Below, piece by piece: positions 1,705-17,159 of a stretch of DNA of 21,242 nt. How positions within the stretch are numbered: the stretch's first letter is position 1; each line of letters begins with the position of its first letter. The DNA lies in IMG/VR virus record IMGVR_UViG_3300005613_000476, positions 1 through 21,242 of that record; one strand, written 5' to 3'. Source of the DNA: a virus. Below the pieces are notes generated by a model. That model ran no database searches and had not been told where the DNA came from. It saw nothing but the letters and a program-made list of their open reading frames with translations. The position numbers were made by a program, and so were the translations under genes.

Positions 1705-1749
1705 GTTAATATAGTTTCTAGGCCATCGACTATACGCGTCTATATTAAC
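1705..1749. promoter_or_regulatory. 10-bp inverted repeat in leader of virion gene
   Basis: GTTAATATAG at 1705-1714 and its exact reverse complement CTATATTAAC at 1740-1749 flank a 25-base centre. A second short palindrome (ATAGAAA / TTTCTAT) lies at about 1777-1792. On the minus strand TATAAT occurs at about 1775 with a poor TTGCGC 15 bases upstream, so a weak promoter is possible. The inverted repeat may be an operator or an RNA hairpin in the leader of the 156-residue protein gene. Function unknown. Confidence 0.35.
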
Positions 1750-1804
1750 TAATTTTGTATAGTGGCTAAAATATTATAGAAATTTTTCTATGAGCGCAAG
1801 TAAT

Positions 1805-1999
1805 CTATTTAATTGGAATAAATAAAGGACTCTCATATTTATCTAAATCTCTCCATCTCAATTTTGCCACAACTCTTTTGATACGTTCTTCAATCGATTT
1901 CATCTCGAGAGTTTCCTTACCAGCAGATAAATATTGAGAATTCCACTGAGATTCTAGCTTGATTTTCTCAGCAATAAGGGACTGTGATAGAGCGGTCAT
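1805..1999 (-). CDS. Small hypothetical phage protein
   Basis: A 64-residue, mostly helical, basic protein (MTALSQSLIAEKIKLESQWN...). The ATG has an excellent Shine-Dalgarno (AAGGAGG with 6-7 bases spacing). It is the first gene downstream of the minus-strand promoter at about 2038-2065 and the terminator that follows the major capsid gene, so it opens a separately initiated transcript. I recognise no family. The heptad-like Leu/Ile spacing in residues 5-45 suggests a short coiled coil. It is separated from the next gene by about 120 non-coding bases. Confidence 0.65.
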   Translation of the reverse strand: MTALSQSLIAEKIKLESQWNSQYLSAGKETLEMKSIEERIKRVVAKLRWRDLDKYESPLFIPIK

Positions 2000-2037
2000 T
2001 ATATACCTCCTTCGATATATTACTAAACCGCCTTAAT

Positions 2038-2065
2038 TTTATACTCTTTTTTCCCATAAAGTCAA
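2038..2065 (-). promoter_or_regulatory. Sigma70-like minus-strand promoter with TTTATGGGA box in spacer
   Basis: On the minus strand the -35 is TTGACT (2065-2060) and the -10 is TATAAA (2043-2038), 16 bases apart. The spacer begins TTATGGGA. A second TTTATGGGA copy lies exactly 21 bp upstream (plus-strand TCCCATAAA at 2052-2060 and 2073-2081), two helical turns away. The second copy continues as TTTATGGGATATTCT, identical to 15 bases in the spacer of the plus-strand promoter at 18601. The promoter sits just downstream of the capsid-gene terminator and would drive 1999 leftwards. Confidence 0.6.
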
Positions 2066-2077
2066 GAGAATATCCCA

Positions 2078-2107
2078 TAAAAAAAAGGGCCCGAAGGCCC
2101 CTTTTAA
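2078..2107 (-). terminator. Rho-independent terminator after major capsid gene
   Basis: On the minus strand a GC-rich stem AAAAGGGGCC - TTCG - GGCCC is followed by a run of eight T. The UUCG-type tetraloop and U-run make this a textbook intrinsic terminator. It lies about 20 bases past the stop codon of the major capsid gene (2128) and would end the long late transcript coming from the terminase side. The A-run on the other side gives partial bidirectional symmetry. Confidence 0.85.
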
Positions 2108-2127
2108 AAGTAGTTTTCTAGTACGTA

Positions 2128-3033
2128 TTATGCACCCGGTGAACCGAAGATACCTCTGAAATCAGAGAAACCGAAAGAGTATCTTTCTCTCGCTTTGTAT
2201 CTCATGTTACCTGTGTCAAAGTCACCTTCCATTGCAGTTTTGATAGGTGATCTTTCGAAATGCTTCATACCATTTGGTACGTCTGTCTTAATGAAGAACG
2301 CATCATCATCAGTTAAGTAGTGGTTGACTACATAACCTTGAGGAATCATCCCCATGTTTCTGATTGCGTTAACATCATTGTCAGCTGTACCTACTCTGTT
2401 GGCAGAATTCATTAGTCTGTCCGCAGTGAATTGTAATGCTGAAGGAATGATTAATTTCACACCTTGAGCAGCAATCTTTAGACCTCTCTCATCTGTGAAA
2501 GCAGCAATATCGATTAAAGCTTGCTCTAAAGATGTTTCGTTAAGATCAGCAGATGTTGCTAATTCATTGCTTACAGTACCACTGATAGTTGGGTGAAGGG
2601 TTGAACAAAGTTCTTTTCCATCTCCGCCTAAGAAGTTGGTGTTGAATGCATTGTTTAATACAGAAGCAGCTTTTACTTGCTTTGTATTAGCCATTGATCT
2701 TGCAAGAGCCTTTGTATATCTAGAAGCTAATCTATCATACAAGTTGTCTTCAATTGCTTCCTCAGTGATTGAGAATGCAAGAGCGACTGTCTCGTGTGTA
2801 TAACGAGATGTATATGTCTCTTGTGCTTGATCATATGCGATTCCAGCACCTTCAGCTTTTACTGAAGCGTTACCAAAACCTGATAACATTACCTCTTCTT
2901 CGAATGCTCGATCAGAAGTTTCTGTATCAAAGATTTCAGCGTGCTCGTTTTCGTACCTTTTGTACTCCAGGCCAAATAGTGCATTTAAACCCGGCTCTAG
3001 CTCTTTAGCTAGTTGTGATCTTGAAATAGCCAT
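2128..3033 (-). CDS. Major capsid protein (HK97-fold type)
   Basis: A 301-residue protein with the size and position of the major head subunit. It lies downstream of scaffold and head genes, has a perfect AGGAGG Shine-Dalgarno and is followed by a strong terminator. Visible features are the N-terminal helix with LEPGLNALFGLEYKRYENE, the segment FEEEVMLSGFG...YDQAQETYTSRYTHE (E-loop-like region), a long helix EEAIEDNLYDRLASRYTKALARSM (spine-helix-like) and a C-terminal RYKARERYSFGFSDFRGIFG. These resemble capsid proteins of the Mu gpT-like / marine podovirus group that I recall. It forms the icosahedral shell with the scaffold at 4128-5096. Identity is strong from context and sequence style; the fold assignment is inference. 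Confidence 0.88.
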   Translation of the reverse strand: MAISRSQLAKELEPGLNALFGLEYKRYENEHAEIFDTETSDRAFEEEVMLSGFGNASVKAEGAGIAYDQAQETYTSRYTHETVALAFSITEEAIEDNLYDRLASRYTKALARSMANTKQVKAASVLNNAFNTNFLGGDGKELCSTLHPTISGTVSNELATSADLNETSLEQALIDIAAFTDERGLKIAAQGVKLIIPSALQFTADRLMNSANRVGTADNDVNAIRNMGMIPQGYVVNHYLTDDDAFFIKTDVPNGMKHFERSPIKTAMEGDFDTGNMRYKARERYSFGFSDFRGIFGSPGA

Positions 3034-3045
3034 AATTTAAACCTC

Positions 3046-3603
3046 CTATATTAGCTGTTGACCTTTAGCAATTTTAACAATGAAGTTTTCGCTAGCTGCT
3101 GCTACTTCATTATCTGGATCACTATCAAGTCCCACGATTAACATTTGACCATTTGTTGATGAAGCGAGATCAAGCTTAACACCGGAAATACCGTTTGCGC
3201 TGTCACCTGCTGCATAAATTGCATCAAATGCAGTACCGACAGATGTAATACCTGTAGCAGTACCTGTTGATTTTACTAAGTACAATTGATCAGGATCATC
3301 GATGATGAATGCCTTGATCTTACCTTCAGTAACATTAGTTTGTGTATAATTGTTTCTGAAAGTTGGTTTGCCTGTTGATGGGTCGCTTTCAATTAAGCAT
3401 CCGTTAAAGACACCTAAAATACTACCAGTTGCAGATGATTGTACTGGTACAACGTATCCGCCTGATAAAGCTACCAAGTCACCCTGAAATATTGATGAGG
3501 ACATATTATCCACTATTTCATACTCAGATTGACTTCCAGCTGCATATGCGCCACCAACTTTGCCTAATGGTCTTAAACCAAAGGCTTTAGTTGAGTTTGC
3601 CAT
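3046..3603 (-). CDS. Probable capsid decoration/head protein
   Basis: A 185-residue protein starting MANSTKAFGLRPLGKVGG, a start pattern I recall from a conserved protein encoded next to the capsid gene in marine podoviruses and cyanophages. It is beta-rich (many Val, Gly, Thr and Ser), with QSEYEIVDN, FQGDLVALSGGYVVP and DDPDQLYLVKS segments and no membrane segment. It has a strong AGGAGG Shine-Dalgarno. It lies immediately upstream of the major capsid gene on the same transcript, 12 bases apart. Decoration or head stabilisation is inferred from position, abundance-type ribosome binding site and composition. Confidence 0.72.
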   Translation of the reverse strand: MANSTKAFGLRPLGKVGGAYAAGSQSEYEIVDNMSSSIFQGDLVALSGGYVVPVQSSATGSILGVFNGCLIESDPSTGKPTFRNNYTQTNVTEGKIKAFIIDDPDQLYLVKSTGTATGITSVGTAFDAIYAAGDSANGISGVKLDLASSTNGQMLIVGLDSDPDNEVAAASENFIVKIAKGQQLI

Positions 3604-3656
3604 ATTTTAATACCTCCTAAAGTATATAGCTGGTAGCCTAAGAAATAACTAAGAGA

Positions 3657-4121
3657 TTAGTTTTTCTTTGAGCCACCAAAAGTTACACGACTCTGCCTAT
3701 CTTGGTTGATAGGCATACTTGGGTGCTGTTCCTTCAAGAGATCGTTGTTGACAGCGTCTTCACGGTCTTGCGTTCTTTGTTGATAGTACGCTTCTCGTTG
3801 CTGCGCGAGCTCTTCCGGTATCCTTGCCAGCACAAGGCCACCAACTCCTATCATTCCTGCGTATTTGCCCTCTCTGAGGATTGGATAATTTTCTTCAGGG
3901 TAAGAATCACCACGAACAAATTCCCATCCAGAACGTAATTTTCCAGATGCATTCTTTGTATCGTCTTGACCCATACTCTCGACTCTTATCCAACGTTGAC
4001 GGTATCCGTCAGGCGCAGGGGGTGCGTCTAGTGATGATGGGGGAGTCCAAACTTGAGGTCTAACATCTTTAGCCCTAGTTTCACTCGCGCGAGAAGTCTT
4101 GTCTATTTTTTTATCTTCCAT
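3657..4121 (-). CDS. Conserved head-module protein of marine phages, function unknown
   Basis: A 154-residue soluble protein. Its core includes YRQRWIRVESMG, SGKLRSGWEFVRGD, KYAGMIGVGGLVLARIPEE and a C-terminal MPINQDRQSRVTFGG. I recall this arrangement (W-R/I-x-E, G-W-E-x-V, I-G-V-G-G-L-V-L, P-E-E, then a basic tail ending in TFGG-like) as a widely conserved hypothetical protein between scaffold and capsid genes in marine podoviruses and some cyanophages. It starts 7 bases after the scaffold stop, with a GGAGG site inside the end of the scaffold gene, so expression is coupled. Residues 95-135 form a charged helix. A virion or assembly role is inferred. Confidence 0.7.
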   Translation of the reverse strand: MEDKKIDKTSRASETRAKDVRPQVWTPPSSLDAPPAPDGYRQRWIRVESMGQDDTKNASGKLRSGWEFVRGDSYPEENYPILREGKYAGMIGVGGLVLARIPEELAQQREAYYQQRTQDREDAVNNDLLKEQHPSMPINQDRQSRVTFGGSKKN

Positions 4122-4127
4122 ATGCTT

Positions 4128-5096
4128 TTACGCCTCCTTCGCGATTAATTGTTTCGCATATTCTTCAAGTGGCACACCTAATCGCTTAGCTATTGCTACC
4201 TGTGAGGGTGTGAGTTTCACAGTTCTGCGGCGTCCTGTGGTAGCTGGACGTTTGGCTGATGCTACGGTTTGAGAAGGTTTCTCTTTTGTAGTATTTTCTG
4301 TTGTAGCAAATTTATGGGGAAATTCAAGCTTTATTCTTTTATCTACTTCCGCATAATATTCATCACTACTAGGATCATATCCTTCATCTTCTGTCAACTG
4401 CTTATGAATATCAAAAGCAGTATAAGTCATCGCAGAATCGGTACCAAACCAAGGGTTTTTCTCGGCCCAGGACTCGGCTTTCGGGTCCATTGCTTGAGCA
4501 GCTTGTTTAATGGTCTGAGCATTCGCATACGATTGTTGTTGCTGTTGCTGAGGATAAACAGGCTGTTCTTGAGCAGGTTGTTCCTTTGGTTGACGTGATT
4601 TCACTTGATTAAGTCTAGCAGCATCCATTGTTAATCGTGCTATATCAGTCTGTGCAGCGATTTGGCCGTCTACATCTTGATTATCAATAGCATTTTTTAA
4701 TTTGATTTTTGCTGCTTCTAGATTGGATTGAACTCGATTTTCAAATTCTGATACATAATTTGTATCTAAATCTTTAAATCTTGACTGTAGCTGTCTTTGT
4801 TGTTGAGCTATAGATTGTGCATAAGCAATCGCTTCTTCTTTTTGACGCTCTGCTTCACGCATTTTTCGAGTGAGTTTAGCAATACGTTTTTTAACACCTT
4901 CGCTATACTCGCTAAGTTCATCCTCTTTTTTCTCTTCTTTATCTTCTTGTTCTTCCCCTGAAGCCGTTTGTTCTTCTTGAACAACGTCTAATTCTTCTTT
5001 CTCTTCAACGACCTTCGGTGCATCTAAATCGATTTCCGCGCCTTCGGTCTCGCCAACATCAATCATTGGCTCTTCTCTTTTCAGTTCTTCAGGCAT
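4128..5096 (-). CDS. Capsid scaffolding protein
   Basis: A 322-residue protein with the architecture expected of a head scaffold. It has a highly acidic Glu/Asp-rich N-terminal third (about 1-65), a long charged coiled-coil (about 65-165, with KKRIAKLTRKMREAERQKEEAIAYAQ), a Gln/Pro-rich linker with a run of six Gln near residues 184-190 and a compact basic C-terminal helical segment (KLTPSQVAIAKRLGVPLEEYAKQL). The C-terminus would contact coat subunits in scaffolds of this class. The gene lies two genes before the capsid protein on the same transcript and has a GGAGA ribosome-binding sequence. The protein should be transient in procapsids. The role is inferred from architecture and order; I am fairly sure. 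Confidence 0.82.
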   Translation of the reverse strand: MPEELKREEPMIDVGETEGAEIDLDAPKVVEEKEELDVVQEEQTASGEEQEDKEEKKEDELSEYSEGVKKRIAKLTRKMREAERQKEEAIAYAQSIAQQQRQLQSRFKDLDTNYVSEFENRVQSNLEAAKIKLKNAIDNQDVDGQIAAQTDIARLTMDAARLNQVKSRQPKEQPAQEQPVYPQQQQQQSYANAQTIKQAAQAMDPKAESWAEKNPWFGTDSAMTYTAFDIHKQLTEDEGYDPSSDEYYAEVDKRIKLEFPHKFATTENTTKEKPSQTVASAKRPATTGRRRTVKLTPSQVAIAKRLGVPLEEYAKQLIAKEA

Positions 5097-5113
5097 AGTT
5101 GTCTCCTATGTTT

Positions 5114-5551
5114 TTATATATGGTGAAGGATATCCTCGGGGTTATTGATAGTTCCAAGGACTTCATCATCGTTTAGTAAGCGCACCTCACCACCTTCAAT
5201 TGGTAATCGTGAGCCTGCGTATCTGGCGAAAATAACCCAATCGCCTTCTTTACACCAGGGACCTGATGTAAACTTTTCTGTATCTTGATAACATAGTGGT
5301 CCCATTTTAATAACATAACCACAGTTTGTTGCGATACGTAATTTATCTAAAGATTCTTGTGCAATAATAATTCCACCTTTGGTCCTATCTTTAGGGGTAA
5401 AAGGTAAAACTAATAATCGCCAACCGGATGGTTGTGGTAGTTTTGATACTTGGTCCTCGGTAATATTTTCCGCTCGGACCTGTTTCTTTTCTTCTTCTTT
5501 TTCTTTTTGCTCTTCCTCCCTGTACTTCTCTTGAAGTGCGTACTTAGTCAT
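5114..5551 (-). CDS. GroES-like co-chaperonin (Cpn10/gp31-type)
   Basis: A 145-residue protein. Residues about 37-138 show the GroES layout: PSGWRLLVLPF, a mobile-loop-like segment PKDRTKGGIIIAQESLDK (about 53-70) with the GGIII tripeptide region where GroES binds the GroEL apical domain, then GYVIKMGP, GPWCKEGDWVIFARYAGSRL (the usual K-x-G-D-x-V strand) and EVRLLNDDEVLGTI at the end. The N-terminal 36 residues are an unusual highly charged Glu/Lys extension not present in bacterial GroES. Phage co-chaperonins such as T4 gp31 replace host GroES so that host GroEL can fold the large capsid protein. The position right before the scaffold and capsid genes fits this. It overlaps the upstream gene by 8 bases. 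Confidence 0.85.
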   Translation of the reverse strand: MTKYALQEKYREEEQKEKEEEKKQVRAENITEDQVSKLPQPSGWRLLVLPFTPKDRTKGGIIIAQESLDKLRIATNCGYVIKMGPLCYQDTEKFTSGPWCKEGDWVIFARYAGSRLPIEGGEVRLLNDDEVLGTINNPEDILHHI

Positions 5552-5738
5552 CTTTATGCTCCTTACGATCTAGCAGGTTAGAGAGTTCCTGTTGCGTTTG
5601 TTCAAAGGCTTGCACCTTTCCGATAAGATACTTGTATTTATCCATGCTGTCAACACCTGTCATGATAGTATCTTTGTGGTCTTGTATGACTTCTTTCAAA
5701 TACTTTTGAAGTCGATAAACGACATTTATTTCTTCCAT
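5544..5738 (-). CDS. Small helical phage protein, hypothetical
   Basis: A 64-residue helical protein, MEEINVVYRLQKYLKEVIQDHK..., with the pattern DSMDKYKYLIGKVQAFEQTQQELSNLLDR. Small proteins with this 'YxYLxGxxxAxxxxxxELxxLL' helix occur upstream of head genes in several marine phages as I recall, without a known function. It has a good ribosome-binding site (AAAGGA) and its last codons overlap the GroES-like gene by 8 bases, so the two are translationally coupled. There is no membrane segment and no cysteine. A role in assembly or chaperoning is only suggested by the overlap. Confidence 0.68.
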   Translation of the reverse strand: MEEINVVYRLQKYLKEVIQDHKDTIMTGVDSMDKYKYLIGKVQAFEQTQQELSNLLDRKEHKDD

Positions 5739-5833
5739 AATTTTTCCTTTCGTGTATTTTTATATCATGAACGACCCTAAAACAGAAGCCGAAGATTTAA
5801 CAGTAATTGTAGAATTTGATTTTGAACTACCGA

Positions 5834-6034
5834 CTATTCACTAAGTAGACGGTCTAATTTCTTATTGATTTCCGTAATTTGATTCTTAATAACCGCAATA
5901 TCTTGCATCATTACTTCAACATTATTGGTCTTTTTTTCTAAAGCTTGAATCTTTTCACCCCACATACCCCAAGATACGAGGAAACCACCAATGATGATGA
6001 TATAAGGAGCTGCAAGTTTGATATCAATCTTCAT
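5834..6034 (-). CDS. Small membrane-anchored coiled-coil protein
   Basis: A 66-residue protein with one membrane segment (about residues 8-25, AAPYIIIIGGFLVSWGMW) followed by a heptad-patterned coiled coil to the C-terminus (IQALEKKTNNVEVMMQDIAVIKNQI...). This N-in anchor plus coiled coil resembles small inner-membrane proteins encoded near holins in marine phages, and the 124-residue protein two genes upstream has the same plan. It could be a spanin-like or holin-accessory protein; this is inference. The ribosome-binding site is weak. About 95 non-coding bases follow before the next gene. Confidence 0.68.
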   Translation of the reverse strand: MKIDIKLAAPYIIIIGGFLVSWGMWGEKIQALEKKTNNVEVMMQDIAVIKNQITEINKKLDRLLSE

Positions 6035-6048
6035 ACTTTTTTATACCA

Positions 6049-6267
6049 TTAATGTTCCATTTTGCGAATACTTTTTATAAAAATTCTTCCTTGAATTTCT
6101 TCTAATTCCGCCTCTGCCTCACCACAAGTAATTAATACCGTGGGACCCATATTACGTTTCATTAGACGTTTCTTTTCTAAACAGTCACCAACACCGGTTG
6201 TGTAAGTATGCTCTAGCAGTTCTCCATTACCACTAAATAAACAAAGAACCATCACTACTTTCCACAT
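6049..6267 (-). CDS. Small conserved phage protein with hydrophobic N-terminus
   Basis: A 72-residue protein with a short hydrophobic start (MWKVVMVLCLFSG), cysteines near residues 9, 29 and 49, and a charged C-terminus. The N-terminus may be a weak export signal, and the two downstream cysteines could form a disulphide in the periplasm; both are inference. The ATG (6267) directly follows the TAA of the upstream gene (6268-6270), so translation is coupled. It is sandwiched between two membrane-plus-coiled-coil proteins, which suggests a shared envelope-related job such as lysis. No family name is assigned. Confidence 0.62.
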   Translation of the reverse strand: MWKVVMVLCLFSGNGELLEHTYTTGVGDCLEKKRLMKRNMGPTVLITCGEAEAELEEIQGRIFIKSIRKMEH

Positions 6268-6642
6268 TTAGTGACCGTTCCCATTCGCAAATTGAATATC
6301 TCTTGTTGCATCTTTTAACTTTTCTACATCTTTAGTTAGTTTGTCCACTTGTTCTTCCAAATGCTCTAACATAACTTGAGTGTGTAAATTTTCTTCTAAT
6401 TGTAAAGCGTGTTTTTCAATCATCTTGGCGTTCATCTCAATCAACATATAAATCTCTAAGTTCTTGGGGGTTTGTTCAGCCTTCTTTAACAAGTCAGCTT
6501 CCATTAATTGACGATTAGTTTCTAAGATATTTAATCGCTCGATGACACCGAAATAGGCCCATGCACCTATCACGACGGCAGTCACAATCGAAATTAAATT
6601 TCGAATAGGCATGCCTACTGTTGTTTTGTCACTTATTTCCAT
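6268..6642 (-). CDS. Membrane-anchored coiled-coil phage protein
   Basis: A 124-residue protein. Residues 1-14 are polar and basic (MEISDKTTVGMPIRN), 15-34 form one membrane helix (LISIVTAVVIGAWAYFGVI) and 36-112 a long charged coiled coil (LEEQVDKLTKDVEKLKDATRD). The opening 'MEIxDKTTVGMPIRNLxSI' and 'KKAEQTPKNLE' are patterns I recall from proteins of unknown function in cyanophages and pelagiphages. It probably sits in the inner membrane with the coiled coil on one side. The short coiled-coil membrane protein at 5834-6034 may be its partner. A lysis or entry role is speculation. Confidence 0.72.
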   Translation of the reverse strand: MEISDKTTVGMPIRNLISIVTAVVIGAWAYFGVIERLNILETNRQLMEADLLKKAEQTPKNLEIYMLIEMNAKMIEKHALQLEENLHTQVMLEHLEEQVDKLTKDVEKLKDATRDIQFANGNGH

Positions 6643-7715: not shown

Positions 7716-8000
7716 TTAGCACCTCCATCTCTTTCGAGCTTGTCTAAGTCTTGAATTGGGATCTTTCGCAGCTTTCGGAAATTTTTTCATTTGACCAGCA
7801 GAGCGAGCACAAAAAGACTTTCTTCTTTTTGCTGCTTTACTACCCGGTTTCACTTTACCGGTGACCGCTGTTTTTAATTTAGAACCAGGATTCTCGCGTC
7901 GATAACGCTCGACACCCGCTTTCGTCATCCCCGCACCACTCTTCGTGGACCGGAAATACTTCTTGGTTTTAGGGGGCTGTTTGTCGGCTGTTCTCGGCAT
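7716..8000 (-). CDS. Basic small phage protein, DUF6321-like
   Basis: A 94-residue, extremely basic protein. The core KAGVERYRRENPGSKLKTAV, then KPGSKAAKRRKSFCARSAGQM and a C-terminus RLRQARKRWRC, matches a small conserved phage family I recall as DUF6321 (ENPGSKLKTAVT...KPGSKAAKRRKSFCARS...ALRKWNC). The conserved Cys residues in SFCARS and the terminal RC are visible. The charge suggests nucleic-acid binding, for example DNA condensation in the head, but no function is established. It ends one base before the Pro-rich gene starts. Confidence 0.78.
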   Translation of the reverse strand: MPRTADKQPPKTKKYFRSTKSGAGMTKAGVERYRRENPGSKLKTAVTGKVKPGSKAAKRRKSFCARSAGQMKKFPKAAKDPNSRLRQARKRWRC

Positions 8001-8018
8001 AGTTCTGTTTTACCTTTT

Positions 8019-8270
8019 TCATTTCCTTTTGGCAAATGTTTTGACGTTGGTGGGTTTTGGCCCGGTGTTTCCGGCTGCGCGTTTTCTTCTGACGGCGGAT
8101 TTTTTCTGCGATTCGCTCATCGACCTTGCCTTGGCTAGTGGAACGCACTTCGGATATTTGCGCTTCGACCCTTTTGACCTCCCGCAAGGTTGGTACTTTC
8201 CGTCCTTTTTGGGAGCGCCGATGTCGACCCATTTTTCGGCTACCCATTTTCTTAGTCCATTTTTTGCCAT
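8019..8270 (-). CDS. Basic small phage protein, DUF5872-like (tentative)
   Basis: An 83-residue basic protein. It starts MAKNGLRKWVAEKWVDIGAPKKDGKYQPCGRSKGSKRKYPKCVPLAKA and ends in a Lys/Arg tail (KPTNVKTFAKRK). The 'W-V-D-I-G/ K-D-G-K-x-x-P-C-G-R / R-x-Y-P-K-C-x-P' pattern with two cysteines is one I recall from small marine phage proteins, tentatively DUF5872. The paired cysteines and basic surface suggest a small nucleic-acid or metal-binding fold. It is one of a series of adjacent basic mini-proteins, 2 bases after the stop of the preceding gene. Function unknown. Confidence 0.7.
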   Translation of the reverse strand: MAKNGLRKWVAEKWVDIGAPKKDGKYQPCGRSKGSKRKYPKCVPLAKARSMSESQKKSAVRRKRAAGNTGPKPTNVKTFAKRK

Positions 8271-8272
8271 TG

Positions 8273-8533
8273 TTAACTTTTCGTTGTAACCTTTCGTCGG
8301 TCTGCCATAACACCGCCGCAGGCTTTGGCAATCCCACCTTGATTATAATTAGAAACTTTTTTACGATTTTGTGAAATAGAGTTGACACTCCCTCCATCAG
8401 CTTTTTTCTTCCTTCCTCCTGGTTTGATTTTACCGGAACAAACAGCACTGGCATACATGTTCGCATAAGCAGAAGGATAGACTTTAAATTTTCTTTTCGC
8501 TGCCGCTTTACCTTTTGCACATAATTTTGCCAT
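8273..8533 (-). CDS. Basic small conserved phage protein
   Basis: An 86-residue protein, MAKLCAKGKAAAKRKFKVYPSAYANMYASAVCSGKIKPGG..., followed by a Gly/Lys-rich tail. The motif 'KFKVYPSAYANxxAxxxC.GKI' is one I recall in small proteins of marine phages and large viruses; a family assignment is not certain. Cysteines occur near residues 5, 32 and 72. Its ATG overlaps the stop codon of the 40-residue gene (TAATG at 8533). It is part of a run of basic mini-proteins that may coat or organise DNA; this function is inferred from charge alone. Confidence 0.72.
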   Translation of the reverse strand: MAKLCAKGKAAAKRKFKVYPSAYANMYASAVCSGKIKPGGRKKKADGGSVNSISQNRKKVSNYNQGGIAKACGGVMADRRKVTTKS

Positions 8534-8655
8534 TACTTTTTCCTTTTCCTTGTGACTACAATTTTACCGTCTTTTTCTTGAACTTTCATTCCGGCGTCTT
8601 CGGTATGTTTTTTGAGTTGACGATATTTTTCGGATACGGTTAGTTTTTTTACCAT
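8533..8655 (-). CDS. 40-residue basic hypothetical protein
   Basis: A short frame translating as MVKKLTVSEKYRQLKKHTED followed by AGMKVQEKDGKIVVTRKRKK. Both ends overlap or abut neighbours: its ATG (8655) lies 3 bases after the TAG of the cysteine-rich gene, and its TAA overlaps the ATG of the next gene as TAATG. The downstream gene's ribosome-binding purines (AAGGAAAAGG) lie inside its end. An N-terminal helix followed by a beta hairpin (MKVQEKDGKIVVTRK) is plausible. No family is recognised. The continuous chain of overlaps makes a real gene likely despite its size. Confidence 0.6.
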   Translation of the reverse strand: MVKKLTVSEKYRQLKKHTEDAGMKVQEKDGKIVVTRKRKK

Positions 8656-8657
8656 TA

Positions 8658-8786
8658 CTATTTCCCGTTGTTATTTGTTTCGGTATCTGTGCTCTCGTTA
8701 TTGCCATGATCACATCCGGCACATTCGCACATACAAGTTTGACCGCAGTGACATAAGCAACCACACTTGATGCATCGATCGACCAT
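8658..8786 (-). CDS. 42-residue nine-cysteine protein, metallothionein-like
   Basis: The frame translates with nine cysteines in residues 5-25 (C5, C8, C10, C12, C14, C18, C20, C22, C25) plus His13 and His27, in CxC and CxxC spacing, then a polar Asn/Thr/Glu tail to residue 42. This density resembles metallothioneins and other metal-cluster mini-proteins, which bind Zn, Cu or Cd through thiolates. I do not recognise a specific family. The start is ATG at 8786, 2 bases after the stop of the upstream 36-residue gene. There is no strong Shine-Dalgarno, so coupling is likely. The TAG stop lies 2 bases before the next ATG. The tight fit in the gene chain supports a real gene; metal binding is inference. 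Confidence 0.62.
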   Translation of the reverse strand: MVDRCIKCGCLCHCGQTCMCECAGCDHGNNESTDTETNNNGK

Positions 8787-8788
8787 TT

Positions 8789-8899
8789 TTATTTTTTGAC
8801 GCGTCCGCCTTTTTTCATGAAACCCATTTTGTTTCGAACAGGCTTCGGTAACTTTTTAAGTCCCTTGTTACTTGCCGGAACGGGTTTTAGTTTTTTCAT
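8789..8899 (-). CDS. 36-residue Lys-rich hypothetical protein
   Basis: The frame reads MKKLKPVPASNKGLKKLPKP, continuing VRNKMGFMKKGGRVKK before TAA. The terminal MKKGGRVKK is a sequence style I recall at the ends of small proteins in marine phages. The ATG has a usable ribosome-binding sequence (AGGAGA, 7 bases upstream). It is followed 2 bases later by the cysteine-rich gene. Strong basic charge suggests binding to DNA, RNA or membrane; no function known. Confidence 0.6.
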   Translation of the reverse strand: MKKLKPVPASNKGLKKLPKPVRNKMGFMKKGGRVKK

Positions 8900-8907: not shown

Positions 8908-9321
8908 CTATTTCGTTAAATGTTTAGATTTTTCAAACGTTCGCAAACCCGCCATGCCCAAGAGCGCCATGACTAGTGGCATCAATTGTTCCATGTCGAG
9001 TTGTGGTAACGGCTCTGTTTGAACTTCAAACACTGCTAGAAAGAACACGATAAAATTTTTAAGAACAAATTCCCAAAATATGGCCAATGCTGCACTAAAT
9101 CCAATGAGGGGTCTCCAAGAACGTTGCAGTATACCTGAAATATCGGTAGCTGTAGATTTAGCATCAGCTAAATTGACCTCAATTTGTTTCGCATTGATTT
9201 CGTTTTCTAGCTCTTTTAGTTTGGCTTTAGCAGCTAGCTTTTCCTCTTCACTTGTGTGAACAGAGTCAATAACCTTGCCTACGGTATCTACTAATGAGCC
9301 ACCTAAAAGCTTACTGAGCAT
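8908..9321 (-). CDS. Three-TM holin (GTA_holin_3TM-like)
   Basis: A 137-residue protein. Residues about 20-55 are a charged helix (TSEEEKLAAKAKLKELENEINAKQIEVN) leading to RSWRPLIGFSAALAIFWEFVLKNF and further membrane segments (about 70-85, 86-100 and 112-127, the last MPLVMALLGMAGLRTFEK). The order 'coiled helix - SWRPLxGF - hydrophobic - MALLGMxGLRTxEK' matches the 3-TM holin family first described for the gene transfer agent of Rhodobacter (GTA_holin_3TM), which permeabilises the inner membrane at lysis. No Shine-Dalgarno is visible before the ATG; it begins 1 base after the stop of the 31-residue membrane peptide, so translation is probably coupled to it. Confidence 0.85.
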   Translation of the reverse strand: MLSKLLGGSLVDTVGKVIDSVHTSEEEKLAAKAKLKELENEINAKQIEVNLADAKSTATDISGILQRSWRPLIGFSAALAIFWEFVLKNFIVFFLAVFEVQTEPLPQLDMEQLMPLVMALLGMAGLRTFEKSKHLTK

Positions 9322-9594: not shown

Positions 9595-9765
9595 TTAGCT
9601 CCTTTTCTTGTCTTTTGATAGTCCCGCCTCACTCAAGGCAATCGCAATTGCTTGTTTTTGTGAAGTAACTTTTTTCTTAGATTTACCAATGGGAAGTTTT
9701 CCTTTTTTAAACTCCCTCATGACCTTTGCAACTTTGCGTTGTTTGTCTTTTTTGGTTGTTCCCAT
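9595..9765 (-). CDS. 56-residue DUF6496-like protein
   Basis: The frame reads MGTTKKDKQRKVAKVMREFK, then KGKLPIGKSKKKVTSQKQ and AIAIALSEAGLSKDKKRS. The sequence KVMREFKxGxL...VTSxKQAIAIALSEAG matches the small conserved family I recall as DUF6496, common in bacteria and phages. The start overlaps the portal stop as TAATG (9765), a classic coupling. Its 3' end carries the ribosome-binding site for the next gene. The family function is unknown; the basic N-terminus and KQAIAIALSEA helix suggest nucleic-acid contact. Confidence 0.8.
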   Translation of the reverse strand: MGTTKKDKQRKVAKVMREFKKGKLPIGKSKKKVTSQKQAIAIALSEAGLSKDKKRS

Positions 9766-12233
9766 TATTTATTACTCATTATTTTCATATTTTGCACGCC
9801 CATTTTAGCAAGAGATATCCCTGCACGCAACTGTGCATGTTCATCTTCTTGTTCTAGCTTTTCATCTTTGTGCATTTGGTCTTGTAAGAGCTTTGCACGG
9901 TCAATTTCTAGCTTTTCTTCGGCCTCTTTGCCTTTTCGTTCGTTTTCACGGGCACGGAGGTCTAATTCTTGGCGTTTTAGCTTGGTTAAGGGGTCATCAT
10001 TGACGTCAGAGAAGATACTATTCTCTTCTTCCATGTAATCTTTGGTCATTTCTGCAATTAATTTAGCTTTTCGAGACTCAATCATCACCATCAAGTTCTC
10101 AATTTGCGGTCCAAGCTGTGGATTTTGTTGTAATTGCGCCTGCATTTGTTGCATCTGCACCATTTCTTGAGCAAATTCGAGCTGAATTTGTTCTTGAGCC
10201 ATCAAAGTGATGTGTTCTAAAATATTTTTCTGCAAAGAAGCTGCAATTTGAGGATTATTTTTTACCATCACTGTCCCCATAAAATTTAAGTGAGCATCAA
10301 TGTGTGCTTTATGGTCTTGTTTCGGGAATGCTTGAAATGGTTTAGCAGTCATTGCTTGAATATGTTCCATACTCGGGTCCATTGGTTGTGGTTGTTGAGG
10401 GGGAGGAAGAATCAAATCGACATTTTTCACACCAATCGCTTCATACATACTGCGATAGGCTTGATACAAATTATGAATTTGAGGATTAGTTTGAGCTAAT
10501 TGTAATTGTGTTTGAGCTAAACTAATACGTTGCGCTTGAGAAAAAATATTTGGATCGGCAATCGGTAAAATATCAATACGCTGATCAAAGTCTTGTTGCT
10601 TGATGACTCGCTGTCCTCCGACGACGTCATAAGGATATTCAGGAGGTAAATACAAACTGAACACTCGGGCCAACATTTTAAATTCGTTTTTCAAAGAAAC
10701 ATAGAGCCTCTTATGAATGGATGACATCACACGAGAACCACGTTCTAATAAAGCAATGGTGGTTCCCACGGCCGCGCCTTGATTACCATCCCCGACTTGC
10801 ATATCCGCAATCGATGCAAAGCGTTGTCCGGCTTGCACCACAATACCCATTAATTGTAAAAGGGTAGCGGAAGGTTCTTTAAAGGGTAAAGGTAAAAAAG
10901 CTTCTCGTAAATTTCCATTCGGAGCATCGACATCACGAAACTCACCCGGAGTTAACGATTGAGCGTCATCACGAATACGCAGCCCTCTGACCTTAAATCC
11001 AGAGGGAAGATTAGATAATGTTCCAGCGTCTAGTAATTGGCGGAGAGCTGCTGTAGCGGTTCTAGACAAACCGCCAATCATATGAATTAATCCAAAACCA
11101 TAAAATCCCAATCCAGGCAAAAACTTGAAATGGGTAAAGTAATCAATTCTTGCTTTCTTCATATCTTCGGGATCGTAGTTTCGTTTAATGGATAAGACTT
11201 CTCGACTTCCTTCTTCAATCGTGACAATGTAAGGAAGTTTGATTCCTGTGGGCTCACCCGTCTCGGCGCTCATATCCTCGAATCCTTCGAGGTCTAAGTC
11301 AACGTGACATTCCAATAAGGTATACATATCCGGATCTTTTTCCGTTTTGCGAATACCTTCTAGCTCTCGTTCTTTTTGAGCAATTTCATCATCTTCACTG
11401 TAAGGGTCTCCTAAATCGATATCTCGATAGAAGCCACTCACTTGTTGTTTTCGTAAATCGTTTTTAGAAATATGGACTTTGTGAATAATCGCGTCCGCAT
11501 CGTCAAGCGATGTTGCTGAGTACGGCACTAGCAAATCGTCAGCCGGTACAAATTTAGAAACGGCTCGATTTAAAATCGAATCGTAATACACTTTTTTAAA
11601 AGTGGAACCGGACAAAGGAAGATAAAAAAGCATTTGATCAAATTCGGGTTCATACTCTTTCATCTCTTGCATGAGTTGATAGTTCATGAATTCTTTCACG
11701 CGCTCGGCTTGTTGTTCTTTTTGAGGAGACGGTGCGCCTACTTGTTGAGTACGCACCGGTCCGTTGGCGGGTAATAACTCTTTGTATGCTTGCGCTTGAA
11801 ACTGAGTAACGGCTTCGGCTAACACCGGATGTGTTGCTCCGGATGCGCCTTGAAAAGGTTCGGTTCGGTCTTCGTATTTAAATCCTAATAAATCTAATCC
11901 TTTGGTATAGGTTTGTTCCCAATCCTGTCTCGACATTTTGTAATCGAGATATAAATCTTTTAACTCACTGCCAATCTCATCTAAATACGCTTCTTCTAAA
12001 AATTCCGCTAAATTGGCAAAGTGCTGTTGTCCACCTTCCATGGAAATGGTTTCGGGATCAAAAGAAATTTCGACTCCTCCATCTTCGGTCTCTTCTATCC
12101 GAGGAGGGACTTGATCGAGTTGTTGTTCTTTTTCTAATTCTTCCGTAACCGCCTGCTCTAGTTCGTCACCAGATATCTGCAAGACTGTTTCTTCTTGTAC
12201 CTCATTGGGTAAGGATTTATCTATTTCCGCCAT
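9765..12233 (-). CDS. Portal protein, long P22-like podovirus type
   Basis: An 822-residue protein. Residues 1-95 are acidic. The portal core runs from about 95 (YLDYKMSRQDWEQTYTKGLDLLG) through ATHPVLAEAVTQFQAQAYKELLPANGPVRTQ, FMNYQLMQEMKEYEPEFDQMLFYLPLSGSTFKKVYYD (wing and stem entry) and FKFLPGLGFYGFGLIHMIGGLSRTATAALRQLLDAGTLSN to about 640. A long Gln/Glu/Lys coiled-coil tail (about 690-800, with QEQIQLEFAQEMVQMQQMQAQ) follows, comparable to the barrel-like C-terminal extension of P22-type portals. A dodecameric ring at one capsid vertex through which terminase threads DNA is the family role. The length and gene order (terminase, one protein, portal) support this. Confidence 0.87.
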   Translation of the reverse strand: MAEIDKSLPNEVQEETVLQISGDELEQAVTEELEKEQQLDQVPPRIEETEDGGVEISFDPETISMEGGQQHFANLAEFLEEAYLDEIGSELKDLYLDYKMSRQDWEQTYTKGLDLLGFKYEDRTEPFQGASGATHPVLAEAVTQFQAQAYKELLPANGPVRTQQVGAPSPQKEQQAERVKEFMNYQLMQEMKEYEPEFDQMLFYLPLSGSTFKKVYYDSILNRAVSKFVPADDLLVPYSATSLDDADAIIHKVHISKNDLRKQQVSGFYRDIDLGDPYSEDDEIAQKERELEGIRKTEKDPDMYTLLECHVDLDLEGFEDMSAETGEPTGIKLPYIVTIEEGSREVLSIKRNYDPEDMKKARIDYFTHFKFLPGLGFYGFGLIHMIGGLSRTATAALRQLLDAGTLSNLPSGFKVRGLRIRDDAQSLTPGEFRDVDAPNGNLREAFLPLPFKEPSATLLQLMGIVVQAGQRFASIADMQVGDGNQGAAVGTTIALLERGSRVMSSIHKRLYVSLKNEFKMLARVFSLYLPPEYPYDVVGGQRVIKQQDFDQRIDILPIADPNIFSQAQRISLAQTQLQLAQTNPQIHNLYQAYRSMYEAIGVKNVDLILPPPQQPQPMDPSMEHIQAMTAKPFQAFPKQDHKAHIDAHLNFMGTVMVKNNPQIAASLQKNILEHITLMAQEQIQLEFAQEMVQMQQMQAQLQQNPQLGPQIENLMVMIESRKAKLIAEMTKDYMEEENSIFSDVNDDPLTKLKRQELDLRARENERKGKEAEEKLEIDRAKLLQDQMHKDEKLEQEDEHAQLRAGISLAKMGVQNMKIMSNK

Positions 12234-12242: not shown

Positions 12243-14516
12243 CTACTTGTTTTTAAATAAAGAAGCAACACCCTGAGACATCGGTCCGCGGTCCGGTGGC
12301 GTCGTTCGGGTTAGATTCATTAAGCCCCCTTGAGCAGCATAACGTCGCACAATATCCTCGGTTCGCGTTGGATCAAATCCAGCGAGCTGAGCATATCGTT
12401 GTAAAAGTTTTTGGTATTCGGTTAATTCGGGTGTGGTATCGGGTGTGGTATCGGGTGTGGTATCGGGTGTGGTATCACCACCGCCTCCTCCACCACCACC
12501 TTGGCCTTGATTGGAAAAATCAATAACACGAGGAACGTCTGCTTCTCCTGTAGGTAATCCTGTTATGGGGTCAATACCTACATCTTCAGCACCTAATGCT
12601 CGAGGGGATGAGGGTTGTGTTACAATAGGGATTGCTTGACCTGTCATAGGGTCAATCCCCACACTTTCAGCACCTAAGGCTCGAGGGGATGAGGGCTGTG
12701 TTGGAAAAGTATAAATTTGAGGATCTCTTACATCAATTGGATCTAATTCGGATACACCAATTCTTTCTACGGGTAGTCCGCCTCCTTCTCCTGTCATAAT
12801 ACTAGGTAATGTTTCCATGGGAATATCTTGAGGAACTAAAGATTGAAAAGGAGCAAGTTCTTCTGCTTGAGAACGACGCATTGCATCATAAGCGCCGGAC
12901 ACGATTCGTGGATCGGTGACCGCTGTTTCTTCTTCTTCCTCTTCTTCTCCTCCGGGTATTATTATATCTTTAAGAATATTAAAAGCTATGGAACCAGGCA
13001 TCACAACTTTTGCTAAGCCTTCGGCTATTCCTGGTGTTCGAACCATTTGAGGAACATTACTTGTAGGGTCCGTGTATTGTATACTATCATAACCGGTAAA
13101 GGCTCTAGCAATATCTCCACCGACTTGTCCGAGTGTCGGAGCGGTTGCGGTCACACCCGGTAATTGTTTAGATAAAATAGTTCGACCTTCTTCATCCTTT
13201 ATTCCCAGATTTGTAAAACTGATTCGGGGAACTCCGTCCGGACCAATGAAGGGTGTCGCGCCGGCCGCTAAGCCTTCCGCAATGGTTGACATATTCTCGG
13301 CATACTTTTCTTTGTCCGCGGGCCGTCTATATTTCGAGCCGACTTCACCGAACTCTTGACCTAACTCTTCAAACGTCTCGGGTCGACTATCTCCAAAAAT
13401 TTTATTAATTTGTTTGTTGGCTTCAACAATCGTATTCGCTTGCGCTTCCGATATTCCGGTGAGTCCCGTGTTACCCGCCATCGCCATGGACTGAGCGGGG
13501 CCCATGGGCTCGTTCATCAACTCACTTACACTTATCGGAGGTGTTGTTACCTCCATTTCTGGAAAGGAACTCTCTACTCCTGGGGGTCCAGAAACTTGTC
13601 CTGTAGGTAATCCGGTCATAGAGTCAATACCCACACTTTCAGCACCTAAGGCTCGAGGGGATGAGGGCTGTACTGGAGGAGGTGCTGTTGTAACAACACC
13701 CATTCCAGGAAAGGAACTCTCTACTCCGGGAGGTCCAATAATGGGAGTAGTTGTTGTTTCTGTTCTTTTTTCTTTAAAAAAAGGATCGTCTAAATATTCT
13801 TTTTGATACTCATCAAACTCTTCTTTAGTAACAGGAGTTCCTAAAATAAAATAATCTTCACCTACTACTTGACCGGGTGCAACGTCTGTTGCAGAAGCAG
13901 TTGCTCCTTTTAAAATTTCTGAAAAAGGAATTTCTTCGACAGGTTGTGCTTTTGCAATGTCAACTAAACTAATAGGAGCTGGAGCTGCCACCACACTCGG
14001 TGGTCCCGCAGGTCCTTTGGGAGCAGGTTTTTCTGCTGCTTTGAGTAACTGATCAATTTCTTTTCCAATTTCCGCCGCTGTTTTTGGTTTGGGTGTGGGT
14101 TTAGGTTTGGGTTTGGAAACAACACTAGGTGGTCCCGCAGGTCCTTTGGATTTGGGTATTGATGGTGGTGTCGGTTTAGGTTTAAAACCTCCACTCGTTC
14201 CTGGTTTAGTTGTTTTAGGTGCGGGTTTAGGTGCGGGTTTAGGAGCAGGTTTAGGTGCAGGTGTGGCTTTCTTTGCAATAGCCTTATCTAATTCTTTTCC
14301 AATCTCCGCTGCTGTTTTTGGTTTAGGTTTACTCCCTCCGCCACCGGATTTTTTAGGAGCGCTTGGAGTAACTTTTTGTTTAAGATTACTACTTCCTTTA
14401 ACAGGTTTATAACCGCCACTGGTTCCTGGCTTCGTTGTGCCGGTTACGGTTTTAGTTTTTTTACCGCCACCGCCGCCACCGCCGCCGCCGGATCCGCCTC
14501 CTGATGAACTACCCAT
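12243..14516 (-). CDS. Large low-complexity Gly/Pro/Lys-rich protein between terminase and portal
   Basis: A 757-residue protein with no recognised domain. It has a poly-Gly N-terminus (MGSSSGGGSGGGG...), Lys-Pro-Ala repeats (KPAPKPAPKPAPKP near residues 84-98), three copies of QPSSPRALGAExVGIDxxTG (near residues 282, 604 and 630), two GPPGVESSFPxM copies (near residues 264 and 311) and a TPDT repeat of four (near 680-693). It ends with an ordered C-terminus LLQRYAQLAGFDPTRTEDIVRRYAAQGGLMN. Its TAG-to-ATG overlap with terminase at 14516 places it in the packaging operon. It may be a virion or ejected protein; inferred from position. Low complexity makes the gene prone to length variation. Confidence 0.7.
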   Translation of the reverse strand: MGSSSGGGSGGGGGGGGGKKTKTVTGTTKPGTSGGYKPVKGSSNLKQKVTPSAPKKSGGGGSKPKPKTAAEIGKELDKAIAKKATPAPKPAPKPAPKPAPKTTKPGTSGGFKPKPTPPSIPKSKGPAGPPSVVSKPKPKPTPKPKTAAEIGKEIDQLLKAAEKPAPKGPAGPPSVVAAPAPISLVDIAKAQPVEEIPFSEILKGATASATDVAPGQVVGEDYFILGTPVTKEEFDEYQKEYLDDPFFKEKRTETTTTPIIGPPGVESSFPGMGVVTTAPPPVQPSSPRALGAESVGIDSMTGLPTGQVSGPPGVESSFPEMEVTTPPISVSELMNEPMGPAQSMAMAGNTGLTGISEAQANTIVEANKQINKIFGDSRPETFEELGQEFGEVGSKYRRPADKEKYAENMSTIAEGLAAGATPFIGPDGVPRISFTNLGIKDEEGRTILSKQLPGVTATAPTLGQVGGDIARAFTGYDSIQYTDPTSNVPQMVRTPGIAEGLAKVVMPGSIAFNILKDIIIPGGEEEEEEETAVTDPRIVSGAYDAMRRSQAEELAPFQSLVPQDIPMETLPSIMTGEGGGLPVERIGVSELDPIDVRDPQIYTFPTQPSSPRALGAESVGIDPMTGQAIPIVTQPSSPRALGAEDVGIDPITGLPTGEADVPRVIDFSNQGQGGGGGGGGDTTPDTTPDTTPDTTPELTEYQKLLQRYAQLAGFDPTRTEDIVRRYAAQGGLMNLTRTTPPDRGPMSQGVASLFKNK
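12429..12476. repeat. Four tandem 12-bp repeats (TPDT codons)
   Basis: Four perfect copies of GGGTGTGGTATC lie end to end on the plus strand and encode (DTTP)4 on the minus strand. Since 12 is a multiple of three, slippage changes length without shifting frame, so copy number probably varies between related phages. Confidence 0.9.
12563..12702. repeat. Pair of about 55-bp direct repeats (PSSPRALGAE unit)
   Basis: Two imperfect copies, about 84 bp apart, share the core 'CAGCACCTAA.GCTCGAGG' and 'GGATGAGGG' and encode QPSSPRALGAExVGIDP. A third copy with the same core lies at about 13613-13671. They are internal duplications in the low-complexity protein gene. Confidence 0.8.
13613..13671. repeat. 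Third copy of PSSPRALGAE direct repeat
   Basis: This copy matches the two at 12563-12702 nearly base for base across 'CACACTTTCAGCACCTAAGG', suggesting recent duplication within the gene about 1 kb away. It lies beside a further duplicated stretch (GGAAAGGAACTCTCTACTCC at about 13561 and 13709), which encodes GVESSFP. Confidence 0.8.
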
Positions 14517-15988
14517 TAGTAATATGTCCTCCGTCTACGTGGTAAGGGTTCATCTTGTTGATCTTCGGGATGTTCAATAAACCCTCCTTGTCTAAATCTC
14601 ATGACTGCTTGAGTCATACTATCGACCAAATCGTCATGGTCGCCATACGGAAATGCTGCGCATTCCTCAATTACTTCTTCCGTAAACTTATCGTCTGTTG
14701 CCCATATTTGCCCTGACTCAAATAGAGGTGCCACGGCATTCACGCGAGCGTGTTTGTCATTTCCACGGCTCGGTGTAAAATTTATAACAGGAATACCCGC
14801 TTTACGCAACTCAAAAGTCAACGGCATTCCACTGGCTTTGCCCTCAATAATCACACTTTCCGGTTGCCAATACTGATATTGCTCTAAAGCCATGCGTTTG
14901 AGCTCGGGAAATTCAAATCGGTCTTTGACGACATCCAGCAAGATTAAATTCGGTCCGCTGTCCTCGGACGGATAAAAGACGCCCCACGTGGTAATAGCAG
15001 AATAATCGGCTGTTTCTTTTTTCAAAAAGGCGGTATCGTAACTTTGAATGACATGATGCAACGGCGGTAATCCTTTCTCCCATATCCTCCACCATTCTCT
15101 TTTGATAATGGAGCCTTCTTCCGCGGTGGGATTTTGCTGATACTGCGCATTCCATTTACCAATCGCCACGGATGCTTTCACCGCTTCTAATTCTTCGAGC
15201 TTCCAATATTCTGGCCATAAGGGTTTATTGGAAGGTAAGATCGCCGGAAACTCAATCACTTCCCATTGATCGGCTTTGGCTTCCTTTTGCGCATTAATGA
15301 GTCGTCCGGTTAAATCTTTCGTGTTCCATCGCGTCATCACCACAATAATAATTCCCCCGGGTTGTAAACGCTGACGAGGACCGGAGGTATACCATTCCCA
15401 AGTTCGTTCCAACGCATTCACGTTCAACGCATCTTGTTCCGAGTGCGGGTCATCAATAATCAATAAATCCGCACCGCGGCCCGTGATGCTTCCTCCGACA
15501 CCCGCGGCAAAATATTCGCCGCCTTCGTTGGTCTCCCAACGTCCTGCTGCTTTGGAATCTTCACGAAGTTTTGTATGAAAAATTTTTTGGTACTCTTCGG
15601 AATCAATTAAGTGTTTCGCTTTACGACCAAAGCGAACGGCTAGTTCCGTTGTATGCGTGGCTTGAATAATTTTTAATTTAGGATTTTTTCCAATCATCCA
15701 TGCGGGCAGGAGGTATGATGAAAATTCTGATTTTGTATGTCTCGGTGCCATATTGATAATGATTCTTTTTAATTCGCCTCGGGCCACCTTATTAAATTTT
15801 TCTGCCATAATTTTGTGATGGGACCCCTCCACAAAATCCGGCCAGACATATTTCACAAACGCCATAAAATCATCGCGGATCGCGGACTCCTTGCGTTTCT
15901 CTTCTAATTTTATTTTATAACGTAAGAATTCTTTTCTAGCTTCGCTAGGTAATTTACTTACATCAATATCTAAACCTTCTATTTGCAT
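14516..15988 (-). CDS. terL: Terminase large subunit
   Basis: A 490-residue packaging motor with ATPase and nuclease halves. The Walker A region is APRHTKSE (81-88), a Thr-containing variant of the usual PPRHGKSE, with Lys86 and Ser87. Walker B is LLIIDD (175-180), and the coupling motif is VVMTRWN (216-222). The RNase-H-like nuclease has D318 (SYDTAF), E382 (IIEGKASG) and DDLVD (452-456). Around 310-330 the ATPase-nuclease boundary is visible. It cuts concatemers and pumps DNA through the portal. The ATG (15988) has only a weak AGAAA ribosome-binding sequence. The gene is the first of the long minus-strand late operon, next to the divergent control region. Confidence 0.93.
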   Translation of the reverse strand: MQIEGLDIDVSKLPSEARKEFLRYKIKLEEKRKESAIRDDFMAFVKYVWPDFVEGSHHKIMAEKFNKVARGELKRIIINMAPRHTKSEFSSYLLPAWMIGKNPKLKIIQATHTTELAVRFGRKAKHLIDSEEYQKIFHTKLREDSKAAGRWETNEGGEYFAAGVGGSITGRGADLLIIDDPHSEQDALNVNALERTWEWYTSGPRQRLQPGGIIIVVMTRWNTKDLTGRLINAQKEAKADQWEVIEFPAILPSNKPLWPEYWKLEELEAVKASVAIGKWNAQYQQNPTAEEGSIIKREWWRIWEKGLPPLHHVIQSYDTAFLKKETADYSAITTWGVFYPSEDSGPNLILLDVVKDRFEFPELKRMALEQYQYWQPESVIIEGKASGMPLTFELRKAGIPVINFTPSRGNDKHARVNAVAPLFESGQIWATDDKFTEEVIEECAAFPYGDHDDLVDSMTQAVMRFRQGGFIEHPEDQQDEPLPRRRRTYY

Positions 15989-16118
15989 TTTCTAAAATGA
16001 ATTTAACACCATAAAGTATCTAAAATCAACACTATAGGTATATATATTAGGATCCCTATTTACAAAAAAGGCTCCTCCCCCCTCTTTAGAAAAAACCAAA
16101 ACCATAAAATCCTTGGGA

Positions 16119-16210
16119 CCCCTCCCTGGGTGGGGTTCAAGATACCCGATGTCACCCTCCCTGGGTGGGGTTAAATTTATATACCCAATGTCACCCCACC
16201 CTGGGTGGGG
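16119..16210. repeat. Three GC-rich palindromic repeats (family A)
   Basis: Copies at 16119-16135 (CCCCTCCCTGGGTGGGG), 16155-16170 and 16194-16210 (CCCCACCCTGGGTGGGG, a perfect palindrome around a central T) are separated by 18-24 bases containing the shared ATACCCRATGTCA. Unit spacing is 35 and 40 bp. The same elements recur at 18461, 18501, 19401, 20463 and 20495, always in intergenic sequence or at a gene 3' end, as in REP-type repeats. Confidence 0.9.
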
Positions 16211-16228
16211 ATAAATCATAATCACGAG

Positions 16229-16267
16229 TGCGACATTCTGTCGCAGTTAAGGTGCGACAATTTGTCC
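16229..16267. promoter_or_regulatory. Two TGCGACA-N3-TGTCGCA operator-like palindromes (family B)
   Basis: Site 1 (16229-16245) is TGCGACA-TTC-TGTCGCA, a perfect 7-3-7 palindrome followed by GTTAAG. Site 2 (16253-16267) is TGCGACA-ATT-TGTCC, one good half and one degenerate half, and abuts the -35 position of the early promoter. Site 1 fits the consensus I recall for RegA/RegR redox regulators of alphaproteobacteria (GNGRCRTTNNGNCGC). Confidence 0.7.
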
Positions 16268-16268
16268 A

Positions 16269-16297
16269 ATTTTAATTTCTGAAGAAAAGTTTATATT
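16269..16297 (+). promoter_or_regulatory. Promoter of first early gene
   Basis: The -10 is TATATT (16292-16297), and a weak -35 (ATTTTA, 16269-16274) lies 17 bases upstream directly after operator site 2. Predicted start is about 16304, immediately before the AGAAAGGATAA ribosome-binding leader. A weak -35 with an abutting palindrome is the layout of an activator-dependent promoter. Confidence 0.5.
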
Positions 16298-16318
16298 AAT
16301 ACTTAGAAAGGATAACTA

Positions 16319-16790: not shown

Positions 16791-16794
16791 TAAC

Positions 16795-16823: not shown

Positions 16824-16847
16824 ATCCCACAAGAAAGGATAAGGACA

Positions 16848-17096: not shown

Positions 17097-17103
17097 GCAT
17101 AGC

Positions 17104-17145: not shown

Positions 17146-17159
17146 AGAAAGGATAAGCA

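Follow-up and report, generated by a model that had tools for sequence, protein, structure and literature searches.

The window analysed here is the whole of a virus record of 21,242 bases, and the locus of interest is a short open reading frame (ORF) on its minus strand, at 8658-8786, which starts with an ATG at 8786, ends with a stop at 8658, and encodes a protein of 42 amino acids, MVDRCIKCGCLCHCGQTCMCECAGCDHGNNESTDTETNNNGK. The cysteines lie at positions 5, 8, 10, 12, 14, 18, 20, 22, and 25, and the minus-strand translation bears out the original prediction of nine cysteines within 21 residues (5-25), with CxC and CxxC spacing. The plus-strand frame over the same interval is interrupted by a stop. 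The predicted gaps of two bases on either side are also present, with the upstream ORF of 36 amino acids ending at 8789 and the downstream ORF of 40 amino acids beginning at 8655. The features of the locus and of the surrounding genes are as follows.

8658..8786, minus strand: metallothionein-like ORF (Cys9His2) of 42 amino acids, recognised by ORF reading, relatives, and conservation
8706..8774, minus strand: conserved core, residues 5-27, C-x2-C-x-C-x-C-H-C-x3-C-x-C-x-C-x2-C-x-H, the proposed metal ligands (11-sequence alignment)
8789..8899, minus strand: lysine-rich ORF of 36 amino acids, directly upstream of the Cys gene (ORF list)
8533..8655, minus strand: ORF of 40 amino acids, directly downstream of the Cys gene (ORF list)
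8908..9321, minus strand: holin of the GTA_holin_3TM family (PF11351, E 6.3e-12; phrog_3427 holin, E 1.2e-26)
8273..8533, minus strand: basic protein of 86 amino acids, a frequent neighbour of the family (phrog_27331)
8019..8270, minus strand: basic protein of 83 amino acids, a frequent neighbour of the family (phrog_23735)
9765..12233, minus strand: portal protein, the anchor of the head module (phrog_1216, E 1.1e-75; 66.4% identity to Pelagibacter phage HTVC027P)
5114..5551, minus strand: GroES co-chaperonin-like gene, the far border of the usual interval of the family (PF00166 Cpn10, E 7.7e-9)
14516-15988, minus strand: terminase
2128-3033, minus strand: capsid gene (domain match)

This order of genes, with the holin, portal, GroES, scaffold, and capsid, supports the late-operon context that had been proposed for the ORF. 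Beside the holin, at 7716-8899 on the minus strand, lies a row of very small basic proteins (phrog_27331, phrog_23735, and DUF6321), which is partly shuffled between near relatives.

Copies of the leader TAGAAAGGATAA, at 16304, 17145, 17461, 18928, and 19493, immediately precede the starts of rightward genes and form a uniform ribosome-binding leader, which is absent from the minus-strand Cys gene. A 34-nt repeat around CCCTCCCTGGGTGGGGAAAAATTTATA occurs eight times between or near the rightward genes in the 15800-20600 interval (at 16116, 16151, 16191, 18458, 18498, 19398, 20461, and 20491), and is possibly a regulatory or packaging repeat of the phage. Four partly palindromic, operator-like repeats of 22 nt, similar to AGGTGCGACAATTTGTC, occur in the divergent right arm, at 16250, 18531, 18581, and 19435. 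A member of the Gene product 88 family (PF17338, E 1.6e-28) is encoded on the plus strand at 19687-20295. Promoters and terminators are no more numerous in the window than in its shuffles.

A density of at least eight cysteines per 21 residues was reached by none of the 65,411 ORFs of at least 30 amino acids in 300 copies of the window generated by a first-order Markov model, and by two of the 194 ORFs of this size in the real window, that is, 8658-8786 on the minus strand and 10042-10170 on the plus strand. The latter is a chance-looking ORF of 42 amino acids, antisense to the portal gene, and antisense Cys-rich ORFs of this kind recur among the relatives. Cysteine density was rejected as proof of a gene, because the antisense ORF equals the count of nine. 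Given that the cysteine count left the question undecided, the relatives were fetched through the neighbouring genes, without the Cys protein as bait: phage contigs were recovered by the portal, the holin, and the protein of 83 amino acids, and were then scanned for Cys-rich ORFs.

The contigs fetched in this way provided 27 distinct proteins, including that of the window, which share the arrangement C-x2-C-x-[CH]-x-C-H-C...C...C-x-C-x2-C-x-H. Seven cysteine columns and the central histidine are invariant in all 27, under a starting regular expression that itself required cysteine at most of the columns and either cysteine or histidine at one. One alignment column is cysteine in 17 proteins and histidine in the other 10, an exchange that resembles the usual swap of metal ligands, while another is cysteine in 23 and alanine in four, all of which have additional cysteines elsewhere; the last histidine is retained in 26 of the 27. 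A profile search of the same loci (E<0.1), which tolerates the loss of ligands, as in the second member found in contig L387, with histidine at a further cysteine site, added only one type of chance-looking antisense ORF, in four copies. Loci chosen by Cys-containing patterns in the later scans of IMG/VR were excluded from the evidence on cysteine invariance. In the alignment of 11 sequences, the residues C5, C8, C10, C12, H13, C14, C18, C20, C22, C25, and H27 are invariant, as is K7.

The comparison of synonymous and non-synonymous changes, which had been suggested for the relatives, was restricted to the cores with the same spacing as that of the window. Among 10 distinct core DNAs from the neighbour-fetched loci, no amino-acid change was found at the cysteine codons, where the pS of 1.23 is a site-counting artefact of two-fold codons, and the non-cysteine codons have a dN/dS of 0.14 (JC). 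The codons left free by the search pattern have a dN/dS of 0.24 in 69 cores among the matches listed. This codon pattern shows purifying selection on the family. Neither a loss of the cysteines in related contigs nor a frame broken in near relatives was found when sought, with the pattern being kept across the 27 proteins, and a 66%-identical version in the near relatives. At the sequence level, it is the conservation in the relatives that distinguishes the 8658-8786 ORF from the antisense ORF at 10042-10170, and the former is a real, conserved gene.

The nearest relatives (L006, L007, and L009) have approximately 96% DNA identity with the window over positions 10500 to 8951, and carry a version of the protein of 32 amino acids, 66% identical, directly after the holin. 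The ORF of 36 amino acids that separates the holin from the Cys gene in the window does not do so in these relatives; the cassette of small genes has been reshuffled among close relatives, with a Cys gene nonetheless being kept. The gene lies near the holin in 22 of the 67 distinct holin loci fetched through neighbours, and immediately after it in 19, where its start coincides with or adjoins the holin stop codon; these 67 loci are what remains of 89 holin ORFs once duplicates and loci with less than 400 nt downstream are removed, with both causes being pooled. The Cys gene precedes the holin in L076, L077, and L081, and in many contexts of the family no relative of the holin lies within 3.5 kb.

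The family was extended by further scans of IMG/VR, based on alignment (the best 80 of 106 relatives) and pattern, followed by an iterated profile, which recovered at least 235 family ORFs and at least 99 distinct proteins in 417 sequences. These represent at least 131 distinct contexts, told apart by the DNA up to 60 nt from the ORF, and one type of contig may therefore be counted repeatedly. At least one head or lysis neighbour of the type found in the window (portal, GroES, scaffold, capsid, holin, or small basic genes) lies within 3.5 kb in 129 of the 131 contexts among the matches listed, and the exceptions are L293 and L307, although tiny basic ORFs are arrayed in much the same way in the latter. 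A portal relative, matched over at least 150 residues, co-occurs in 127 of the 234 member loci among the matches listed. Its identity to the portal of the window is 50-60% in 77 of these loci, and over 90% in 18, and, given that most of the accompanying portals are only 50-60% identical, the family spans divergent phages. Contig L387 has two different members, at 2184-2384 and 3024-3212 on the minus strand, one of which is poorer in cysteine and richer in histidine.

The presence of the gene is patchy. No family member was found in 17 of the 19 portal-fetched loci with a complete interval from portal to GroES, or in the five isolate regions fetched, which include those of HTVC027P, HTVC023P, and 023Pt_psg01, and the gene is therefore not essential. 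Searches of 50,697 phage records by tblastn, using the proteins of the window, L007, L160, and L258, returned no credible match; a mycobacteriophage match at E 9 and, with L233 as the query, a single plasmid match at E 7 were both attributed to chance. The effect of the low-complexity filter was controlled by running tblastn with and without it on the collected loci, at equal database size. The filtered search recovered 211 of the 234 family loci with the protein of the window, 220 with that of L007, and 211 with that of L258, but only 13 with the divergent L160 type, for which the negative result in the phage records is therefore weak. Ten pattern-bearing stretches were found in the genomes of species, one of them a relative, on the MAG contig L417. 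This contig (PAHC01000028.1), binned in a Rhodobiaceae MAG, carries the Cys gene within 1739-6332, together with a portal, a holin, and the small genes seen in the window, and is read as a phage contig for this reason; a cellular origin was rejected, as the contig is apparently phage DNA in a bacterial bin.

The carrier itself appears, from its head module, to be a podovirus similar to HTVC023P and HTVC027P. The portals of HTVC027P, HTVC023P, and 023Pt_psg01, the HTVC023P-type pelagiphages, are 51-66% identical to that of the window (tblastn), and the head module of the carrier, with its related portal, GroES, and capsid, follows the same order of portal, small genes, GroES, and capsid. The difference is the family member itself, which is found in the window, but in none of the regions retrieved for the three pelagiphages.

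Metallothioneins are textbook metal buffers in animals, plants, and some bacteria, and have few or no aromatic residues. The beta domain of the animal forms (M3Cys9) places approximately nine cysteines within 20-25 residues, with CxC and CxxC spacing. Metallothioneins are described, in PMC10119931, as small, Cys-rich proteins, with clustered CC, CxC, and CxxC motifs, and the same paper presents the bacterial metallothionein SmtA as a protein of 56 amino acids with a Zn4Cys9His2 core.

The phage family resembles these proteins in its small size and its abundant cysteines, clustered as CxC and CxxC, as well as in the scarcity of aromatic residues and the candidate ligands conserved in the 27 neighbour-fetched proteins. 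Over the 99 members among the matches listed, length varies from 29 to 71 amino acids (median 42), with a median of 26% cysteine, and between seven and 14 cysteines per protein. Exactly two histidines are present in 82 of these 99, the net charge is negative in 94, and aromatic residues are absent from 70 and number one to three in the other 29, with none in the protein of the window. A larger form, with an N-terminal extension similar to CEGCDxLCxKCE, has 13 cysteines, as expected if the metal capacity is extendable. The chain has no hydrophobic core and, as read from its sequence, no apparent signal peptide, and nine cysteines are an odd number for the formation of disulfides.

The protein of the window and SmtA of Synechococcus are both small, with nine cysteines and two histidines as candidate ligands, whereas the phage family is shorter, and concentrates its cysteines in a single 21-residue core, with CHC and CxCxxCxH. 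It is also encoded by phages, in a head and lysis operon, and has no Pfam or NCBIfam match at the cut-off. The beta domain of the animal metallothioneins shares the density and spacing of its cysteines with the phage protein, which differs in having two conserved histidines and a single domain, and no sequence relationship between them was found. The curated Pfam cut-off, zinc-finger families included, was reached by neither the protein of the window nor 13 relatives; one of the latter, the divergent L197, matches Metallothionein family 5 (PF02067) over 26 residues at E 0.011, with 16.3 bits, below the curated cut-off of 25, and the protein of the window and the other 12 relatives are unmatched. 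NCBIfam provided no match above its cut-off for the protein of the window and seven relatives, PHROG no significant match for the Cys protein, and a sequence search of the PDB no match at E<=10. A structural model of the relative L233, built from 20 aligned rows, has a mean pLDDT of 72.9, a pTM of 0.40, and almost no secondary structure, and Foldseek found no PDB match at E<=10 with this model of middling confidence. Such a weak fold would be expected of a metal-dependent chain in its apo form, yet gives no support. The view of the product as a metallothionein-like phage protein thus holds for the conserved Cys/His pattern and the composition, by which it looks like a metallothionein, but does not extend to membership, by sequence, of any known family.

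The ORF probably encodes a phage-specific, metallothionein-like metal-thiolate protein, which would act as a late-infection metal buffer of the head and lysis operon. Given the Cys9His2 ligand set of SmtA, the exchange of cysteine and histidine, and the lack of a hydrophobic core, a protein with a cluster of Zn(II), or else of Cu(I), is proposed, in which the short chain would wrap its nine cysteines and two histidines around a metal-thiolate cluster. The analogy with SmtA makes three or four Zn(II) the probable load, with Cu(I) as an alternative. The protein is probably produced together with the head and lysis proteins, and the position of its gene beside the holin and the head genes is the reason for proposing a late buffering role. 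In the reducing cytoplasm, this buffer would capture the metal freed during the turnover of the host proteins, which would then neither poison the late steps of the infection nor be lost to the metalloproteins of the phage. Both the binding of metal and the choice of ion are conditional elements of this proposal, as are late expression and cytoplasmic buffering. The late genes of phages generally serve the formation of the virion and lysis, according to PMC12753301, which describes the temporal classes of HTVC027P as mosaic, and contains no report on the Cys gene.

The protein might, instead, be a compact adaptor similar to a zinc knuckle or zinc finger, with two or three structural zincs, which binds a partner protein or a nucleic acid, in the tuning of late gene expression, for example. 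The spacing and the residues K7, T/S17, E/D/G21, and A23 (window numbering) are more conserved than the storage of metal alone would need, and the one-site swap of cysteine for histidine fits a discrete zinc site equally well. Even so, the prevailing negative charge and lack of aromatic residues are unusual for binders of nucleic acids, the varying number of cysteines is more typical of metallothioneins, and no zinc-finger family of Pfam was matched at the cut-off, which leave this alternative unlikely. A role in the virion, as an internal or joining mini-protein that carries metal and is packaged with the neighbouring small basic proteins, would account for the usual position of the gene among small basic genes of the head module, between the portal and GroES or the scaffold, and the acidic tail of the protein could pair with these basic neighbours. 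This too is quite improbable, however, considering the patchy presence of the gene and the fact that the block is not purely structural, since it is shared by the holin. The close junction of the gene with the holin stop in 19 of the 67 loci would suit a modulator of the timing of lysis, co-translated with the holin and perhaps sensitive to redox or metals, but the intervening gene in the window, the loci with the Cys gene upstream of the holin, the many contexts with no holin nearby, and the lack of a membrane segment in the protein of the window, as read from its sequence, make this reading very doubtful. A functionless chance ORF, for which the abundance of short ORFs in the window and the portal-antisense ORF offer precedents, is hardly credible in the face of the conserved ligand pattern, the purifying selection, the synteny, and the retention of the gene through the reshuffling of the cassette.

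Phage metallothioneins may have been discussed before. No report of a phage-encoded metallothionein was found in a literature search of titles and the first parts of abstracts, with most of the subscription literature lying outside its reach, and priority is not established. The words "metallothionein", "cysteine", and "zinc" are absent from the main text of the survey of HTVC023P-type phages (PMC9599517), and the small size of the protein and the lack of a database entry for the family would account for its having escaped notice so far.

The metallothionein-like reading lends itself to a broader, tentative extension, in which abundant marine podoviruses would own phage-born metallothioneins that commandeer the zinc or copper of the host late in the infection, or load metal into the particles or the lysate. 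If this were true, the recycling of trace metals in the sea would be steered by phage lysis. A widespread phage family of this type would show that viruses manage the metals of the host cell, would link phage lysis with the cycling of trace metals, and would offer a very small natural metal-cluster fold for study, while the definition of the family brings the question of the metal within reach of a synthetic peptide of 32-42 residues. The protein of this marine phage belongs to a large, well-conserved family of phage mini-proteins that seem made for holding ions such as those of zinc or copper, and this suggests that the phages in question may act on the metals of their host cells.
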